Shown here: positions 21,479 to 29,252 of the stretch, piece by piece
How the letters are laid out: each line of letters starts with the position of its first letter
How positions within the stretch are numbered: the stretch's first letter is position 1
DNA from: Bacteroidota bacterium
Lineage (GTDB): Bacteria; Bacteroidota; Ignavibacteria; Kryptoniales; JAKASW01
Direction of reading: 5' to 3'
Assembly: GCA_021812985.1 (NCBI GenBank)
Contig: JAKAMG010000004.1
Coordinates: 72,339 to 136,338, forward strand
Length of the DNA: 64,000 nt
The notes under the pieces: model-generated
The model's input: only the letters and a program-made list of their open reading frames with translations
Told to the model about the DNA's origin: nothing
Databases searched by the model: none
Made by a program: the position numbers and the translations under genes

Positions 21479-22546
21479 ATGCGGTGGTCGTTTCCGGTCG
21501 GACGACTTTTCGATATCCCGATAAGGGTACATTACACGTTTCTCCTTCTCCTCGCGTTCATCTGGTATGTCGAATCCAGCGTGCTCGGACCCGAGGCCGG
21601 ATTGCACAGTGTCATTTTCTGGGCGCTGATATTCGCGTGCGTCCTCTTTCATGAACTCGGACACAGCCTCGTGGCCCAGTCGTACGGACTTAAGATCGCC
21701 TCGATAATACTCCTCCCCATCGGAGGGGTATCCCAGATAAATGAAATCCCACGTGACCCGATCAAAGAGGTCGCGATAACCATCGCCGGTCCTGTAGTGA
21801 ATTTCCTAATAGCGGGTGTCCTACTGATCATCGGTAAAATGCTTTACCCTTCCCTTCAGTTCGCGGAAATATCGCTCCAGAGCGGGAGTATGATAGTCGA
21901 CCTCTTTTGGGCGAACATTATGCTGGGGCTTTTCAACATAGTCCCCGCGTATCCGATGGACGGGGGGAGAATACTGCGCGGCCTGATAGCGATGAGGAGG
22001 GATTACCTCGAGGCGACAAGACTCGCCGCCGATGTCGGGAAGCTTTTCGCGATCGGCTTCATAATCATAGGCTTCTTTTACAATTGGTGGCTCATACTGA
22101 TCGGGATATTTGTATTCAGCGGGGCGAGCTCCGAGGCAGACGCGACGGTCATCACTTCGGCGCTGGAGAAGATTCAAGTGAGAAACCTGATGATCACGGA
22201 ATTCAGGACAATTTCACCGGAGGAGCCACTTACGGCGGTCGTGGAGAAATCGCTCCATGTCTTTCAGAGCGACTTCCCGGTGGTCGACGGAGAAAGATTC
22301 GTCGGCATACTAACACGTTCTTCAGTCATCGAATCGCTCCATCACCGTCTTCATGACAAGCGGGTCGGTGAGCTGGCGAGAACCAACTTCCCCTCCATCA
22401 ATCCGGACTCCACAGCGGCCGAGGCGCTCGCCGCCATGAGGACATTCAAGGTCACGCTGGCTCCGGTCGAAGAGAACGGCAGACTGGAGGGGATAATAAC
22501 CATGGAAAAACTTCTTGAGGCATCGGACGTAATAAATGAAAAATAA
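21479..22546 (+). CDS. Site-2 protease family zinc metalloprotease with CBS domains
   Basis: A 355-residue intramembrane protease of the M50 (SpoIVFB-like) type. It has about six membrane helices; the zinc motif HELGH is at residues 58-62 and the third ligand Asp161 lies in YPMDGGRIL. A pair of CBS domains (about 235-355) follows, ending GRLEGIITMEKLLE. In SpoIVFB-like proteases the CBS pair senses adenine nucleotides, so activity may follow energy state. Usual substrates are membrane-bound anti-sigma factors or transcription factors; none is identified here. The stop overlaps the next gene by 11 bases, so the GWxTD lipoprotein is co-translated. Confidence 0.9.
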   Translation: MRWSFPVGRLFDIPIRVHYTFLLLLAFIWYVESSVLGPEAGLHSVIFWALIFACVLFHELGHSLVAQSYGLKIASIILLPIGGVSQINEIPRDPIKEVAITIAGPVVNFLIAGVLLIIGKMLYPSLQFAEISLQSGSMIVDLFWANIMLGLFNIVPAYPMDGGRILRGLIAMRRDYLEATRLAADVGKLFAIGFIIIGFFYNWWLILIGIFVFSGASSEADATVITSALEKIQVRNLMITEFRTISPEEPLTAVVEKSLHVFQSDFPVVDGERFVGILTRSSVIESLHHRLHDKRVGELARTNFPSINPDSTAAEALAAMRTFKVTLAPVEENGRLEGIITMEKLLEASDVINEK

Positions 22547-23822
22547 AGAGAAGCACATGACTTTCAGGACACTTGCCGGGTTGGCAATAGGATTGTTTGG
22601 CGCGGCCGTTATGATTTCCGGATGCGGTCCCGCAATGCACTCCTTCGCGCCCGACGTGAAGAACACGCTTTTCGCTCCACGCTTCGGCTTCTTTATCATT
22701 AACTACCCCACAGAGCATTCCGATTCTTCCGCCGGCGTGCTCTACGCGAGGGTGAGGTATGACGACGTGGTGTTCATCCAGACCGATTCCGGATACTCGG
22801 CGCATTACCAGTTCTCCGTGAACGTGTTCTCCGACAAAGAGCTGACGAACGTCATCTACTCGAGAATTATCGACAGGAAGCTCACGGTGCCTACCTACGC
22901 GATGACGAACTCCACGACAGCATACGACACGGTAGAGGACAAGCTGACGCTCAAGCCCGGCAAGTATTTCGTCGTCCTTAAGCTTTACGATTACAACACC
23001 GACCACACCTCGTCCAGGGAAGTGGAACACACGTTCAGGAATTTCCTCGGCGATCCGCTCACAATAAGCGACGTGCTCCTTTACGACGAGAAGGATACCA
23101 CGGGCCTCCCGATCGACGTGGTCAAGAACCGGGAGGACTCGATAGACGCGAGGTTCTTCGTCAGCATGAAGGACTATCCCGCCTCTTTCTCGATGCATAT
23201 CCTCGCGAAGTCGATAGGCTCTCCGACCTACATAGACACGACACTTCAGCTGACCCAGGACAAACAGGTTCAGCGGTACAGAATTCCGATCCAGACAGTT
23301 GTGCTGGCGCCCGCCACATATCAATTCAAGGTTACGGTGAAGAAGGGTGATGCGGAGACATCCTCAGAAACAACATTGCAGATTCTGAGGAGCAACATGC
23401 CGCTGACTTCTGCCGAACTCGACCAGGAGCTTGAGCCCCTGATTTACATTACAACGGCGACGGTAATAGACTCGCTCAAGACCGGGACCTTCGCGGAAAG
23501 GCGTGCCAGGTTTCTTGACTTCTGGCTGAATCGGGCAAATGGGAGAAAAGAGCAGGCGAACGCGATGAGGGCCGAGTTCTACAAGAGAGTAGATTTCGCG
23601 AACACGCATCTTGCCGGCGGCTTCAGGCACGGTTGGCAGAGCGACCGCGGGAGGATATATATTCTGTACGGGGCACCGGATCAAGTGGAGACACATGATC
23701 AGGGCTTCACGACACCGCCATACCAGGTTTGGTACTACTACAACCTGAAGCTTGAGTTTGTCTTTCTGGATGAGTTCGGGACCGGCAACTACAGGCTCAT
23801 ACAGGAAAACCAGATCGATTGA
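22536..23822 (+). CDS. GWxTD-domain lipoprotein
   Basis: The 428-residue protein carries a lipobox ending ISGC, so it is predicted to be an outer-membrane or periplasmic lipoprotein. The middle is beta-rich (about residues 45-290). The C-terminus has GWQSDRGRIYILYGAPDQVE and YQVWYYY, the signature of the GWxTD domain family common in FCB and Acidobacteria-like genomes, whose function is unknown. Here the motif reads GWQSD instead of GWxTD. An in-frame ATG at 22557 (MTFRTLAG) is an alternative start that would place the signal peptide closer to the N-terminus. The overlap with the protease gene suggests a shared task. Confidence 0.85.
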   Translation: MKNKEKHMTFRTLAGLAIGLFGAAVMISGCGPAMHSFAPDVKNTLFAPRFGFFIINYPTEHSDSSAGVLYARVRYDDVVFIQTDSGYSAHYQFSVNVFSDKELTNVIYSRIIDRKLTVPTYAMTNSTTAYDTVEDKLTLKPGKYFVVLKLYDYNTDHTSSREVEHTFRNFLGDPLTISDVLLYDEKDTTGLPIDVVKNREDSIDARFFVSMKDYPASFSMHILAKSIGSPTYIDTTLQLTQDKQVQRYRIPIQTVVLAPATYQFKVTVKKGDAETSSETTLQILRSNMPLTSAELDQELEPLIYITTATVIDSLKTGTFAERRARFLDFWLNRANGRKEQANAMRAEFYKRVDFANTHLAGGFRHGWQSDRGRIYILYGAPDQVETHDQGFTTPPYQVWYYYNLKLEFVFLDEFGTGNYRLIQENQID

Positions 23823-23840: not shown

Positions 23841-24401
23841 CTATCCGGATTTCTTTTCGTCAAGGGCGGAAACGACCGGGTAACGCGACTTGACCTCATT
23901 CCTCTTTATCTTCGATAGCTTCGGCTTAAGGATCTGACGCTTCACGCCGGAGAGGCGGTTGATGAAGAACTTCTGCTGCAGGTGATCGTACTCATGCTGG
24001 AACACCCTGGCCCACATCCCTGTAAGCTCCGTCTCTACGCGCTCGAAATTTCCGTCGGTGAAACGCACGACGAGTCTGTCTGCCCTCGTGACTTCATCAC
24101 GGATTCCCGGAACGCTGAGGCAACCCTCTTCCATGACGTACTCGCCGCTTGACTCGACAATCTCTGGATTGATGACGACGAGCGGCTTCTCGCCGGCGTA
24201 ATCTTCCATCACCGAAATGTCCATGACGGCAAACGACATCTGGAGCCCCACCTGATTGGCCGCTAGCCCGATCCCATCCGCGTTGTACATCGTCTCGAAC
24301 ATGTCCCTGATCAGCCCGACAAGCTTGTCGTCAAACTTGGTTACTTTCTTCGCGGGGCCGTCCCAAACGCGTGTACCATATAGGTGAATGGGCATTATCA
24401 T
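23841..24401 (-). CDS. def: Peptide deformylase
   Basis: Removes the N-terminal formyl group from nascent proteins. All three family motifs are present in the 186-residue product: GIGLAANQVG (43-52), EGCLSVPG with metal ligand Cys94 (92-99), and QHEYDH with His136, Glu137 and His140. The C-terminal 45 residues form a basic tail (KRQILKPKLSKIKRNEVKSR). The start could be the ATG at 24401 or the one two codons later. It is the last gene of a minus-strand group that begins with the NlpC/P60 protein and is not near fmt in this window. Confidence 0.95.
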   Translation of the reverse strand: MIMPIHLYGTRVWDGPAKKVTKFDDKLVGLIRDMFETMYNADGIGLAANQVGLQMSFAVMDISVMEDYAGEKPLVVINPEIVESSGEYVMEEGCLSVPGIRDEVTRADRLVVRFTDGNFERVETELTGMWARVFQHEYDHLQQKFFINRLSGVKRQILKPKLSKIKRNEVKSRYPVVSALDEKKSG

Positions 24402-24407
24402 CCTGAA

Positions 24408-25307
24408 TTACTCCAGCATTTCTGGTTTAACTTTGATTACTTCGATCTGATTTTCCTTATAGAGAACTGCTTCTCCAGCGTAAAAGATAAGCTTGGAAAA
24501 TATTCTAAGCAAAACTATAATCTGACCTGCAGCGACCTCGACAAGGATCCCTGCCTCACCACTCGAAGGTACGAATCGGGCGGGGAGAAATGCCGCCGCT
24601 ATGACGGCCGTGCTTAATATTGTCGCGCCGATGTAAACACCGCCGGTCGAGAGGGGGTGTCTGATAACGAACGTGACTCCTCGCGTCAACTTGCTTAGAA
24701 ATGTATCGTCGTCAAGCGCCATTGCGGCTTTCGAGAAATCAGACAAAATATTAATTACGCCGAACAGGACGAGGAGAACCGCGTATCTCCAGAAACCAAC
24801 GCGCCAAAGACCATGTGTCGCGACAATTCGGTTCGATGCCGTCCCTCCAATCAAGTCAAAAAGAGAATTCAACTTGTAAAGCCCCATGAGAAGAGCAACT
24901 TCGATGAGAGTCCCCAAAAGGATATCGAAAAACTTTGTGGAGCCGTTGGAGAGGAACACCCCGATTTTCACCTTCTCTGAAGCGGCGAAGGACGTGAAGA
25001 AGCCGCCGGCTAGGAATACATCGACAAGGATATAAAGCACTATGAGGAAAACGATCTGAGGAAGGAGCGCCGAAAAGAAGGGAGCGTTCCCGTGCGCGAA
25101 TTCCACATACCATCTGTAGCAGAAACCGGATAAGAGCTCCTGGCCGACGAGGCGGTTCGATAAGTCGCTGCTGACCAACGACGCGATCGGAATCGTCAGG
25201 ATGGCGGCGAAGACAAAATTGATTAGATAAAAGACGAGCCACAGCCGCCAGTTCCTGAACGCCCTGACGCTCCCCATCCAGAAAGCTCTTGCTGCGCCGA
25301 CGTTCAC
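24408..25307 (-). CDS. Multi-pass membrane protein of unknown function
   Basis: I place the start at the GTG at 25307, which overlaps the TGA of the upstream M1 gene (GTGA), giving 299 residues; the frame is open further back to 25367. At least five hydrophobic segments are seen, for example LWLVFYLINFVFAAILTIPI, PQIVFLIVLYILVDVFLAGG, YAVLLVLFGVINILSDF, GVYIGATILSTAVIAAAFL and AAGQIIVLLRIFSKLIFYAG. No catalytic or transport motif is recognised. Coupling to the M1 homologue suggests a shared complex or pathway, but this is only inferred from the overlap. Confidence 0.75.
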   Translation of the reverse strand: MNVGAARAFWMGSVRAFRNWRLWLVFYLINFVFAAILTIPIASLVSSDLSNRLVGQELLSGFCYRWYVEFAHGNAPFFSALLPQIVFLIVLYILVDVFLAGGFFTSFAASEKVKIGVFLSNGSTKFFDILLGTLIEVALLMGLYKLNSLFDLIGGTASNRIVATHGLWRVGFWRYAVLLVLFGVINILSDFSKAAMALDDDTFLSKLTRGVTFVIRHPLSTGGVYIGATILSTAVIAAAFLPARFVPSSGEAGILVEVAAGQIIVLLRIFSKLIFYAGEAVLYKENQIEVIKVKPEMLE

Positions 25308-27301
25308 GCGAGAAGTCCCATAACCAATAGCACGTGCTGAAAATAATTGAAAACTCTTGCCACCCACTTGATGACCGGGAGGTAAGAGGGGCGGACCAGA
25401 AGGCTGTTATTGGCATAATCGATGTCCAACGGAATCTTACCCTCCGGGTCGAGTACAGCATACTTAGGCAAGCTGTTGGTCCGTAGAACTACGGTGTGCC
25501 AACGCGCCTGACCATCCCAGAGAGTATCGACCGACGTGCCGTCTTCTAGCGAAAGACGGAGGTCAACCGGCATCTTTACCTCGCCGTTTCTCTTGACTGT
25601 AACGCTGGTGACATAGGTAGTGGTCCCTATCGCCAAATCGGTCTCGCGGTAGTATTCGATTGAGCTTACGGCGAAGTCGACCGTACCGGTTCCGCTTATG
25701 AACGAGTTGAAAAACCAACCAAGATCCCGGCCGGCAATCCGTTCCGCGACGGTCCTGAAGTCAGCGGCGGTGGGATGCCCGAATCGGTACTCTTCGAAAT
25801 AATTCCTCATTATTTCCAGCATTGCGCTTCTCCCGACAACACCCTCGAGCGTGTGGAGAACAAGGTCAGCTTTGTCGGAGGCAATTGCCTCATATGCCCC
25901 GCGATTTCGCGCACGATAAGCGTAATCCGATATCGCGTCGGCTGTGGCATATTTGAGATACAAGGGAATACTATTGAAAGGCTCGTGGATCCTCGTCTTA
26001 CCGATAATCGCCGCCGCCGGAATTCCGTCCACTGACACGACAGGAAGCAAGTTCAAAGTATAATCGCCTCCGAACGAGTACGCCGGCACTTGTCCGCCAT
26101 CCGATTTCTCCATCACCTCGCCGGCAGAATAGGAGGTCAGCCCCTGATCGAGCCACGCCTCTTCAAACCCGTCGCTCCCAACGATGCAGTACCAGTACTG
26201 ATGTCCGATTTCCCGCGTGATGCGTGCCTCGAGGGAAAAGTCGAATTCCCGGCATTTATCGCTCCGGCGTGCCGTGAAGATGGCAGGCAGCTCCATGTTT
26301 CCGAGCCCTGACTCCGGCGGCGGGTCGACAACTGTAAGAACCGAATACGGATAGGACCCGTACCACGATCCAAAGTAATTCATGGCGGTGTCAACGGCGG
26401 AGAAGTACCTACCTGCCTCGGCCCGGTGTTCCGGCCGCAAAAGGAGAACTACTTTTGTTTCGGGCAGCCCGGTGCCCTTGAACACGCGTCTGACCCTTAT
26501 AAAATCAGGCGATGCTGTCCAGGCGAAGTCACGCACATCGGCAGCTACCCACCGATATGTAGTCATCCCGTCAGCATCGGATTTGCGGTCCACCTCTTCT
26601 CCCGTCGCACCGACCACATATCCCGCCGGTACCGTGATCTTTACGTTATATTCGCCGAAGTCTGAGAAAAACTGAGTGAACGCATGGTACTGGTGGCAGT
26701 TCCAAACACCATCATGGTAGACACCAATCTTAGGAAACCATTGCGAGATCATGTAGAAGTTTCGCCCCGGCACATAGCCGCCTCTGAAGATGGCCTGCGG
26801 CAATTGTTCATTGAAATCTATCGACACCGCGATTGAGTCGCCAGGGGCGACAGGCCTGCTGAGCTTGACGACTATGACCGTGCTGTCATGAGTGTTGCCG
26901 TCATCCGGAGAGCTGTATCTGATTTGCGCGGTGAGGTTCTCGCCCGTCCTCAGGTCGACAAAACTTGTGACGTCCATCCAACCGTACGCGGAGGAAGGGA
27001 TGTTTCTCCCCGTTTCGGTCATGAATGTGGTGCTGCCGCTCTTGAACGCGTTCGGGTACAGATGGAAGTAGAGCTCGGAGGTTCCCTCCCCGGAAAGGTT
27101 GTGCCAGCTCAGTACTTCATGGGCGTCTAGGGTGTGCATTTCCGGATCGAGACGGACCGCGATTGAATAATTGGCCACGCCGCTCCTCAGCTCATCGGCT
27201 GAGACAGCCTTAGGATTGGAGAAGACTAAAAGAGACGCGAGCACCAGGAGTGATGCTACCCCATAATTGCTTCCGCGTTTCCCCCCGGAAGGAGAGTTCA
27301 T
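25304..27301 (-). CDS. M1 (aminopeptidase N-like) protein with degenerate zinc site
   Basis: A 665-residue M1-family protein with a signal peptide (to about residue 35), a beta-rich N-domain (to about 265) and a thermolysin-like domain. The family substrate loop appears as GLGNMELP, versus GxMEN. The zinc motif HEXXH is REIGH here (363-367), so the first His ligand is Arg363. Eighteen residues after His367 the third ligand, normally Glu in WLNEGF, is Gln386 (WLDQGL). The general base Glu364 and His367 remain. With two of three ligands gone I predict a non-catalytic binding or structural protein. It is translationally coupled to a lipoprotein upstream (ATGA) and a membrane protein downstream (GTGA). 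Confidence 0.88.
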   Translation of the reverse strand: MNSPSGGKRGSNYGVASLLVLASLLVFSNPKAVSADELRSGVANYSIAVRLDPEMHTLDAHEVLSWHNLSGEGTSELYFHLYPNAFKSGSTTFMTETGRNIPSSAYGWMDVTSFVDLRTGENLTAQIRYSSPDDGNTHDSTVIVVKLSRPVAPGDSIAVSIDFNEQLPQAIFRGGYVPGRNFYMISQWFPKIGVYHDGVWNCHQYHAFTQFFSDFGEYNVKITVPAGYVVGATGEEVDRKSDADGMTTYRWVAADVRDFAWTASPDFIRVRRVFKGTGLPETKVVLLLRPEHRAEAGRYFSAVDTAMNYFGSWYGSYPYSVLTVVDPPPESGLGNMELPAIFTARRSDKCREFDFSLEARITREIGHQYWYCIVGSDGFEEAWLDQGLTSYSAGEVMEKSDGGQVPAYSFGGDYTLNLLPVVSVDGIPAAAIIGKTRIHEPFNSIPLYLKYATADAISDYAYRARNRGAYEAIASDKADLVLHTLEGVVGRSAMLEIMRNYFEEYRFGHPTAADFRTVAERIAGRDLGWFFNSFISGTGTVDFAVSSIEYYRETDLAIGTTTYVTSVTVKRNGEVKMPVDLRLSLEDGTSVDTLWDGQARWHTVVLRTNSLPKYAVLDPEGKIPLDIDYANNSLLVRPSYLPVIKWVARVFNYFQHVLLVMGLLA

Positions 27302-27783
27302 TTTTTGACGAGGCCGTCGATTTGCTGCCGGACCATCATGAATCCACTTGAATCAGCGCGAGCCTGCTGCGCTATCGTTTGTGGAAAGTCGGACGGAAGG
27401 ACGTTCTGACCGTTCACGTTATAGGGCACCAGATTCTTCACTATTCCCGCTCCAAGGGAATACATCATTCCATAACGCCCGACCACATACGAATGTATCT
27501 GGTCCGAAAAGGCGTTATACGCCGAGTTAATCTGAGGGTACTTGCCGGTCGCGAGGTTCGCTGCGATGAACCCGGCATAGAGTTGAGTCGTAGCCCCCTT
27601 CTCTATTCCATCCGAGAAATACTCCTGCGCCTCCTTGTATTGGCTCGCGGCAAACGCCTTCATACCTTCTTCCTGAAGTTCCGCCGGCTTCTTCGAGCAC
27701 GAGGCCATCATGAGCGATATTGAGAGAACTGCGATAAGGGCGACCGATGTATCCCGGATTCCGATTAATGATTTAAGATTCAT
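27298..27783 (-). CDS. Small lipoprotein with a TPR-like helical segment
   Basis: With the ATG at 27783 the product has 161 residues; an alternative start at 27822 would overlap the ubiD stop. The signal peptide ends in a lipobox (MMASC, Cys29), so it is lipid-anchored. The mature part begins with a single TPR-like repeat (EEGMKAFAASQYKEAQEYFSDGIEKG) and continues alpha-helical. The family is not recognised. Its stop overlaps the start of the degenerate M1 gene by four bases, pointing to a joint envelope function. Confidence 0.75.
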   Translation of the reverse strand: MNLKSLIGIRDTSVALIAVLSISLMMASCSKKPAELQEEGMKAFAASQYKEAQEYFSDGIEKGATTQLYAGFIAANLATGKYPQINSAYNAFSDQIHSYVVGRYGMMYSLGAGIVKNLVPYNVNGQNVLPSDFPQTIAQQARADSSGFMMVRQQIDGLVKK

Positions 27784-27800
27784 AGTCCACGGTTTCAAGT

Positions 27801-29252
27801 TTAAATTCCGTATGATTTCCACTTGGAGTCAACGAGCTTCTTGATGTCCTCGGACATCTCAATCTTGTCCGGCCACTGGCGGGTGAATCCTTCATCCGGC
27901 CATTTCCTCGTGCCGTCAATTCCCATCTTGCTTCCGAAGCTGAACTGCTGGGAAGAGTGGTCGAGCACGTCGGCAGGACCTTTCGTAAAGACTACGTCCC
28001 TCTGCGGATCAATGTTGTTGAGTGCGTACCACCACGCTTCCGATGTGTTCTGAACGTTCACGTCCTTGTCCACCACGACGATGACCTTCGCAAACATCAT
28101 CTGTCCCATCCCCCAGAGTCCGTTCATTACCTTGAACGCGTGGCCGGGATATTTCTTGTCTATGGACACAAAGACAAGGTTATGGAAAATTCCCTCGAAC
28201 GGCATGTGATAATCGACTATCTCGGGTATTACGAGCCTAGCGAGTGGAAGGAATATCCTCTCGGTGGCGTATCCCATCCAGTCATCTTCCATGATCGGCT
28301 GGCCGACGACCGTGGACACGAAGACCGGCTTCTTCCTCGTCGTCACCGCCGTAACGTGGAAAGCCGGATAATAGTCGGCGAGCGAATAGAAACCGGTATG
28401 GTCACCGAAGGGCCCTTCAAGACGCGGCTCTTCCTCCGTGTCAACATAGCCTTCCAGGACAATCTCGGACTCCGCCGGGACCTCGAGGTCCACCGTTCTG
28501 CATTTCACCAGCTCGACCGGCTCCTTCCTAAGAAAGCCGGCAAAGAGGTATTCTTCTATGCTTTCAGGGAGGGGGGCGCTGGTACTGTACATGGTCGCTG
28601 GGTCAGAGCCGACGACCACGGCCACCTCGAGCCGTTTCATTCCCTTTTCCTTTGCCTTCCTGAAGTGGGCGGCTCCGCCTTTGTGTCTCTGCCAGTGCAT
28701 TGCAGTCGTGTTCTTGTCGAGAACCTGCAGTCGATAAAGCCCCATGTTGCGGAGGCCGGTTTCAGGATCCTTCGTCACCACCTGACCGAAGAGTATGTAC
28801 GGTCCGCCATCCTGAGGCCATGATGTCGTGATGGGGAGAGTGTAGAGATCGACTCCCTCTCCTTCTGTGACGATCTCCTGGCAGGCGCCCTTCTTTACAA
28901 CCTTTGGCGGAAACTTGGCGAGCTCCATCAGCTTCGGCATCATGGCTATCTTGCCGAGGAGCGATTCCGGAACCTTGAGGTTCATCATCTCGGAAAGCCT
29001 GTCGCCGATCTCATCGAGGTCTTCGACGCCGAGGGCCCACGCCATTCGTTGCTTCGTGCCGAACAGGTTGATCGCCAGTGGTATCTTGCTCCCCTTCACG
29101 TTCGTGAAAAGGAGAGCCGGTCCTCCACTCTTGACAACCCGGTCGACTATCTCCGTTATTTCGAGTTTAGGGTCGACCTCAGTGTCGACCACGCTTATAT
29201 CGTGCTTTTTCCTGAGGAGTTGAATGAATTCGTTGAGACTATTGAGTGCCAT
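27801..29252 (-). CDS. UbiD family prenylated-flavin decarboxylase
   Basis: The 483-residue protein aligns with UbiD-type decarboxylases: N-terminal LNEFIQLLRKKHDISVVDTEVD, GPALLFTNVKG, GPYILFGQVVTKDPETGLRN, YRLQVLDKNTTAMHWQRHKGG, YVDTEEEPRLEGPFGDHTGFYS and VVVVDKDVNVQN. The HWQRHKGG segment and the ExxxxxEGPFGDH motif supply the Arg/Glu residues of the active site. The cofactor is prenylated FMN made by UbiX, which is not in this window. Likely roles are quinone-ring decarboxylation or an aromatic acid decarboxylation; sequence alone does not decide. It overlaps the NlpC/P60 gene by 14 bases. Confidence 0.9.
   Translation of the reverse strand: MALNSLNEFIQLLRKKHDISVVDTEVDPKLEITEIVDRVVKSGGPALLFTNVKGSKIPLAINLFGTKQRMAWALGVEDLDEIGDRLSEMMNLKVPESLLGKIAMMPKLMELAKFPPKVVKKGACQEIVTEGEGVDLYTLPITTSWPQDGGPYILFGQVVTKDPETGLRNMGLYRLQVLDKNTTAMHWQRHKGGAAHFRKAKEKGMKRLEVAVVVGSDPATMYSTSAPLPESIEEYLFAGFLRKEPVELVKCRTVDLEVPAESEIVLEGYVDTEEEPRLEGPFGDHTGFYSLADYYPAFHVTAVTTRKKPVFVSTVVGQPIMEDDWMGYATERIFLPLARLVIPEIVDYHMPFEGIFHNLVFVSIDKKYPGHAFKVMNGLWGMGQMMFAKVIVVVDKDVNVQNTSEAWWYALNNIDPQRDVVFTKGPADVLDHSSQQFSFGSKMGIDGTRKWPDEGFTRQWPDKIEMSEDIKKLVDSKWKSYGI

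Follow-up and report, generated by a model that had tools for sequence, protein, structure and literature searches.

A probable pseudopeptidase of family M1 encoded next to a CysZ/CTL-like membrane protein in a Kryptoniales bacterium

Results

The locus and its genes

The window analysed here, a stretch of 64,000 nucleotides of contig JAKAMG010000004.1 (assembly GCA_021812985.1; Bacteroidota, Ignavibacteria, Kryptoniales), carries on its reverse strand a gene for a protein with the fold of M1 peptidases (M1 hereafter), located between the genes of a small lipoprotein and of a membrane protein (MP), with def further downstream (Table 1). The ATGA overlap of the lipoprotein and M1 genes (27298-27301) and the GTGA overlap of M1 and MP (25304-25307), reported in a preliminary description of this DNA, were both confirmed. 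Judging from this GTGA overlap and from where its homologues start, MP most likely begins at the GTG at 25307 and not at the listed position 25367. A GWxTD-domain protein is encoded at 22536-23822 of the window; its sequence changes rapidly between members of the genus (40-69% identity).

Table 1. Features of the M1-MP locus (positions in the window)
Feature	Position	Strand	Basis or remark
def (peptide deformylase)	23841..24401	-	Downstream of MP in both the genus and family f10; indicates the probable ancestral position
MP, polytopic membrane protein, 299 aa from GTG 25307	24408..25307	-	CysZ/CTL-like in the model; constant M1 neighbour
M1-fold pseudopeptidase, 665 aa, ATG start	25304..27301	-	Open reading frame, Pfam, model
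Domain order of M1: signal peptide, N-terminal beta, pseudo-catalytic, C-terminal beta, C-terminal TM helix	25304..27301	-
Predicted C-terminal TM helix, residues 641-664	25310..25381	-	Model; constraint on 627-665
C-terminal beta domain, residues 541-626	25424..25681	-	Strongly constrained in dead sisters, kept in core-deleted species
Ser475, at the catalytic Tyr position	25877..25879	-	Alignment with relatives and ERAP2
Gln386 (CAG), at the position of the third ligand, Glu	26144..26146	-	Sequence
His367 (CAT), sole ligand kept	26201..26203	-	Sequence
Glu364 (GAA), catalytic Glu kept	26210..26212	-	Sequence
Arg363 (CGG), at the position of the first zinc ligand, His	26213..26215	-	Sequence
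Substrate loop GNMEL (GGMEY in intact relatives)	26288..26302	-	Alignment
Putative signal peptide or signal anchor, residues about 1-36	27194..27301	-	Hydrophobic helix 13-27 in the model; sequence
Small lipoprotein gene, ATGA-coupled to M1	27298..27822	-	Same operon in the genus; outside the conserved module

The protein belongs to peptidase family M1 by profile and by fold. Its match to PF01433 (Peptidase_M1) in Pfam reached 28.2 bits, with a cut-off of 27.7 (E 1.7e-6), and in a structure model based on the window protein together with 58 relatives (mean pLDDT 84.9) residues 40-649 matched solved M1 peptidases, the best being 1z1w (VIA Z 33.6, rmsd 3.8, 470 residues aligned), followed by ERAP1 6ryf (Z 33.0), with IRAP also close. 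As in aminopeptidase N, ERAP, tricorn F3 and LTA4H, the three domains superpose and the HEXXH-X18-E frame is recognisable. Unlike active members of the family, the window protein has two of the three ligands, the catalytic Tyr and the substrate loop changed, a TM helix after the beta domain, and MP as a paired partner.

The codons bear out the motif REIGH in place of HEXXH, with Arg363, and a Gln386 standing 18 residues after His367, that is, at the HEXXH-X18-E position; the zinc-ligand positions therefore read R363, H367 and Q386. The loop GNMEL was also read correctly in the preliminary description, but the GxMEN taken there as its reference was not the appropriate one: the norm of the subfamily is GGMEY, and the window fits neither. 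Column 475, Tyr in relatives and aligned to the Tyr in ERAP2's SYNKGA stretch, is Ser in the window, and N377/E378 are altered as well with respect to relatives. The loss thus exceeds what had been claimed, since it takes in the catalytic Tyr too, and M1 would no longer hydrolyse peptides. The alignment with relatives indicates that 47 of 53 near-invariant residues are kept. Three further M1 genes in the same genome have an intact HExxH..E.

State of the locus in the genus

The locus was read in context in 13 genomes of the genus, including that of the window (G000). The gene order (hydrolase, M50-CBS, GWxTD protein, def, MP, M1, lipoprotein, ubiD, NlpC) was constant wherever the contig was long enough, with extra spacing ahead of def in G001 and G006. 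M1 was intact in one genome, full length with a dead site in six, core-deleted in two, reduced to scraps in two, absent in one and cut by a contig end in one (G006); it has been mostly or wholly lost in five of the 12 genomes that could be judged. At positions 363/364/367/386 the orthologue of G010, a textbook HEXXH..E member with 58-59% identity to the window protein, reads HEHE, while the six dead full-length copies, all in the same gene order, read REHE (G003), REHQ (window), REYE (G009), REYK (G002), RACE (G012) and CGSR (G001). Conservation of both Arg363 and Gln386 had been put forward as a check; in the genus alignment the former is common to five of these six copies and the latter is found in the window alone. 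Nor does the window copy differ from close homologues that are all intact, a case considered in the preliminary description, as only one of the seven full-length copies in the genus is so.

In the two core-deleted genomes (G005 and G011) a signal-peptide-like start is fused in frame to the C-terminal ~127 aa, comprising the beta and TM parts, and followed by MP. In G007 an N-terminal scrap of M1, containing a stop, runs into the end of MP; all that is left in G008 is a decayed MP end, and in G004 a few dozen bases separate the lipoprotein gene from def, with nothing recognisable there. The MP gene of G011 (L129 9339-10307) contains an in-frame TAG with homology on both sides, and could be a pseudogene or be read through.

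The M1 tree places the intact G010 copy nested among the dead genus copies (95/97), although a single dead clade in the genus was not rejected by an AU test (p 0.18). In the MP tree, G010 groups with the dead trio G009/G012/G002 and the window lies outside. Tip lengths gave no clear sign of faster evolution of dead versus intact copies in the genus.

The M1-MP pair beyond the genus

A homologue of MP was found directly downstream of M1 in all 80 outside loci that the search retained, which come from Paenibacillus and its relatives, Aminicenantes, Acidobacteria and one further bacterium. M1 was intact in all 80, a biased result with little bearing on dead copies outside the class, because the search patterns include EIGHQYWY. 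The conserved unit is a two-gene M1-MP module whose members stay neighbours across phyla. The coupled lipoprotein-M1-MP triplet proposed earlier stands as regards its overlaps, but the lipoprotein lies outside the conserved unit: it persists in G004, G007 and G008, where M1 and MP are gone, and is absent from the order read in family f10. In family f4, a gene for a DUF2339 membrane protein lies between M1 and MP (L258 3807-5753, L124 1361-3244). A fused MP in family f13, hinted at by frames of 990-998 aa, was discarded, the MP ORFs there being of 302 aa.

None of 64 MP homologues had a Pfam match (threshold 0.01) and one had a weak NCBIfam match. The MP model (pLDDT 85.4) has six helices and resembles the sulfate permease CysZ (Z 15.6, 14.4 and 14.0) and CTL1/PNS1 of the SLC44 family (Z 13.2-13.5), far ahead of the next match among the structures compared, at 7.3. 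The predicted likeness extends over nearly all of MP, while sequence identity is about 10%; the alignment to CysZ 6d9z had a VIA Z of 15.6 over 228 residues (rmsd 5.8, 9% identity), and Foldseek returned no hit at E<=0.001. The resemblance of PNS1 to CysZ is already in print in a 2026 paper (PMC13160678), in which a transport role for CTL proteins is argued against.

Site loss in family f10

An even sample of 391 genomes of the class was surveyed, with an M1 match (E<=1e-50) in 86 and an MP match (E<=1e-8) in 104. The class alignment outside the genus held 99 sequences, eight of them M1s of another kind from families f2, f5 and f11; 94 read HEHE, one was masked and four were dead, all of them from f10 (G198 HQHE, G202 NRHE, G210 HMET, G112 ENKE). 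In addition, 17 stretches were opened, corresponding to genomes with MP and no M1 match plus two further MP places. In twelve f10 loci among them, the gene upstream of MP codes for an M1 homologue (profile E 5e-36 to 1e-107) in which nothing of the site is left; nine of these homologues are full length (G357, G279, G221, G071, G027, G326, G084, G262 and G302), and three have lost the N-terminal domain by an in-frame change (G331, G372 and G194). A signal-peptide-like start is kept in the three shortened homologues (L278 2211-3563, L280 1718-2989, L272 2103-3404). As for the remaining five stretches, the site was intact in G254 and missing through contig ends in G364, G078 and G333, and G379 had no M1 in the 2.2 kb that were read. 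Pfam named the four f10 dead M1s that were scanned weakly or not at all.

Altogether, the def-linked locus of f10 was intact in 27 and dead in 16 of 43 readable cases, with two more at contig ends, and all eight second-locus M1 copies in f10 genomes were intact; in G202 (L263, L268) the def-linked M1-MP pair is dead and another M1-MP pair, elsewhere in the genome, is intact. At least seven changes between intact and dead are needed on the MP tree when contig-end rows are left out, and G198 represents a fresh loss next to three intact members of its own genus. The same loss of the site has arisen separately in family f10. The f10 stretches that were read keep the order M1-MP-def-fmt, so that the M1-MP-def order of the window is probably the ancestral place of the pair.

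Selection and constraint

The M1 genes of G009 and G012, both dead, gave an omega of 0.262 (dS 0.54; LRT against 1, 127.6), and the trio formed by these and G002, all with Arg363 and open frames, one of 0.199 (LRT against 1, 330.5). By region, the values of the trio were 0.226 in the N-domain, 0.200 in residues 263-405, 0.322 in 440-540, 0.262 in the active segment 330-395 (0.246 with a second alignment), 0.100 in the beta domain (541-626) and 0.036 in the 39 residues of the C-terminus (627-665). In 11 intact trios from four organism groups, whose single values are rough because several trios are near saturation, omega was 0.024-0.064 for the whole of M1, 0.003-0.030 for the active segment, 0.019-0.096 for the beta domain and 0.006-0.130 for the C-terminus. 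According to these regional values, M1 is relaxed 3-8 fold overall, most of all at the active site, with a C-terminus as tight as in live enzymes. The dead copies of the sister species are under purifying selection, and constraint has gone from the active site and been kept at the C-terminal beta/TM part. MP is relaxed too in the genus (omega 0.197, versus 0.031-0.093 in seven intact trios).

Pairs with the window M1 are saturated at synonymous sites (dS 64 with G010, 6.7 with G009), for which reason no claim on selection is drawn from them; selection on the window's own branch would follow from the sister copies and from an open frame in which nearly all near-invariant residues persist. The G001/G006 pair, with 44 codons only, was left out of the estimates, as was the f10 pair G027/G262, which gave no convergence. 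In f10, the dead M1 pair G027/G326 had an omega of 0.122 (LRT 129), falling to 0.037 in the last 125 residues and 0.002 in the last 40, and the pair G221/G279, which is saturated, one of 0.053.

The distribution of substitutions was also considered. Leaving aside the four zinc/Glu positions, 49 near-invariant residues remain, divided into 13 in active-site segments and 36 elsewhere; this split was our own choice and, the species being related, the p values that follow are not independent. The window has lost 4 of the 13 and none of the 36 (p 0.003). Losses (active-site/rest) were 8/6 in G009, 7/3 in G002, 8/4 in G012 and 8/4 in G001 (p 0.0009-0.004), 2/0 in G003 (p 0.07) and 0/2 in the intact G010 (p 1). 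The four dead f10 copies tested in this way gave 2/1 (G198, p 0.17), 5/4 (G202, p 0.04), 6/8 (G210, p 0.10) and 9/11 (G112, p 0.02).

Discussion

Taken as a whole, the data point to the window gene probably encoding a pseudopeptidase subunit of a conserved two-gene M1-MP membrane module. M1 would be exported and anchored to the membrane by its C-terminus, with a six-helix CysZ/CTL-like MP as partner, and its retained job may be to dock on MP by way of its C-terminal beta/TM part. The core function could then be carried by MP together with that part, the M1-shaped ectodomain serving at most as a cap for binding or gating; the roles that would fit best are a cap or gate on MP or the presentation of bound ligand to it. 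A broader proposal, held more tentatively, is that a widespread complex of an M1-fold ectodomain and a CysZ/CTL-like MP has a core function free of proteolysis, with peptidase activity as an option that has been shed repeatedly, followed by a paring of domains down to a C-terminal beta/TM piece docked on MP. Catalysis would be dispensable and M1 would be held mainly by its C-terminal part, and such paring may be represented by the loss of the N-terminal domain in G331, G372 and G194 and of the N-terminal and catalytic domains in G005 and G011.

The preliminary description had argued for a retained, non-catalytic protein and against decay. Retention agrees with the purifying selection on the dead sisters, but "not decay" was too strong, given the 3-8 fold relaxation, the relaxed MP and the genomes in which the gene is deleted or wrecked. 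An alternative with some weight, although on balance unlikely, is that catalysis is useless in the genus and the gene is slowly on its way out, the full-length copies simply not being broken yet. Its truncation, wreckage or absence in five of the 12 judged genomes would fit such a process, as would an omega 3-8 times that of intact homologues and the different residues hit in each species. The relaxation of MP, the in-frame TAG in the MP of G011 and the AU test, by which a single loss in the genus is not rejected, weigh against the subunit reading. However, the three sisters sharing Arg363 have all their frames open at an omega of 0.199, constraint on their C-terminal part matches that in intact homologues, and the f10 dead copies are far diverged yet full length, with a close pair at 0.122. 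Under the pseudopeptidase-subunit reading, the job of M1 on MP may be becoming dispensable in the genus, in which case the order of loss would be the active site, then whole domains and then both genes; retention and decay may both be true, in different branches, if the function is fading in some species of the genus.

The ectodomain may also have been kept as a peptide-binding pocket, in the manner of a receptor or chaperone. This is a special case of the module subunit and compatible with it, but we regard it as doubtful. The N-terminal and catalytic domains of the dead sisters are still constrained (omega 0.20-0.32), and Tma108 is reported to bind nascent chains with its pocket (PMC11266112). 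On the other side, losses of near-invariant residues concentrate in the pocket segments, and in two species both the N-terminal and the catalytic domain are deleted, whereas the C-terminal part and MP persist. The role in peptide binding or as a scaffold suggested earlier is to be modified: a retained role is supported, and constraint favours the C-terminal beta/TM part rather than a peptide pocket.

It is very improbable that the protein is still a hydrolase with its metal held by another set of residues: Glu364 and His367, two of the four core residues, are kept in the window, but the catalytic Tyr is replaced and the substrate loop altered, sisters also lose Glu364 or His367 (RACE, CGSR), and no HExxH was present anywhere in the 21 dead relatives examined. 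An error of sequencing or assembly, which a 64-contig assembly might invite, or a mutation confined to this copy has practically no chance of being the explanation, as two separate substitutions plus Y475S lie in a frame that is otherwise open over 665 codons and the genus has five more full-length orthologues that are dead.

The concept of an M1 pseudopeptidase has precedents. TAF2 is another inactive M1-like protein. In yeast, the pseudopeptidase Tma108 (PMC11266112) makes M1 pseudopeptidases an already known kind; it resembles the window protein in that its M1 fold is thought to work without catalysis. It differs in that all its active-site residues except one are kept and in that, at the ribosome, it binds nascent chains. 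The window protein has lost the zinc site and is predicted from the model to be exported and membrane-anchored, through an N-terminus like a signal peptide and a TM-like helix at the C-terminus; given these two elements, it would be at most an analogue of Tma108. What appears to be new is a membrane-anchored M1 pseudopeptidase that occurs in a bacterium and is tied to a CysZ/CTL-like partner: in titles and abstracts of the open-access literature we recognised no paper describing an M1 gene paired with a CysZ-like one, nor any on a bacterial M1 pseudopeptidase.

Pseudoenzymes are usually met singly. In this case, a single operon exists among related species in versions that are intact, recently dead, long dead or stripped of domains, so that the order of steps from peptidase to non-enzyme can be read directly. 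The finding points to the MP family as the part that matters, and makes a relevant question testable, i.e. which part of M1 is still needed after catalysis has been lost.
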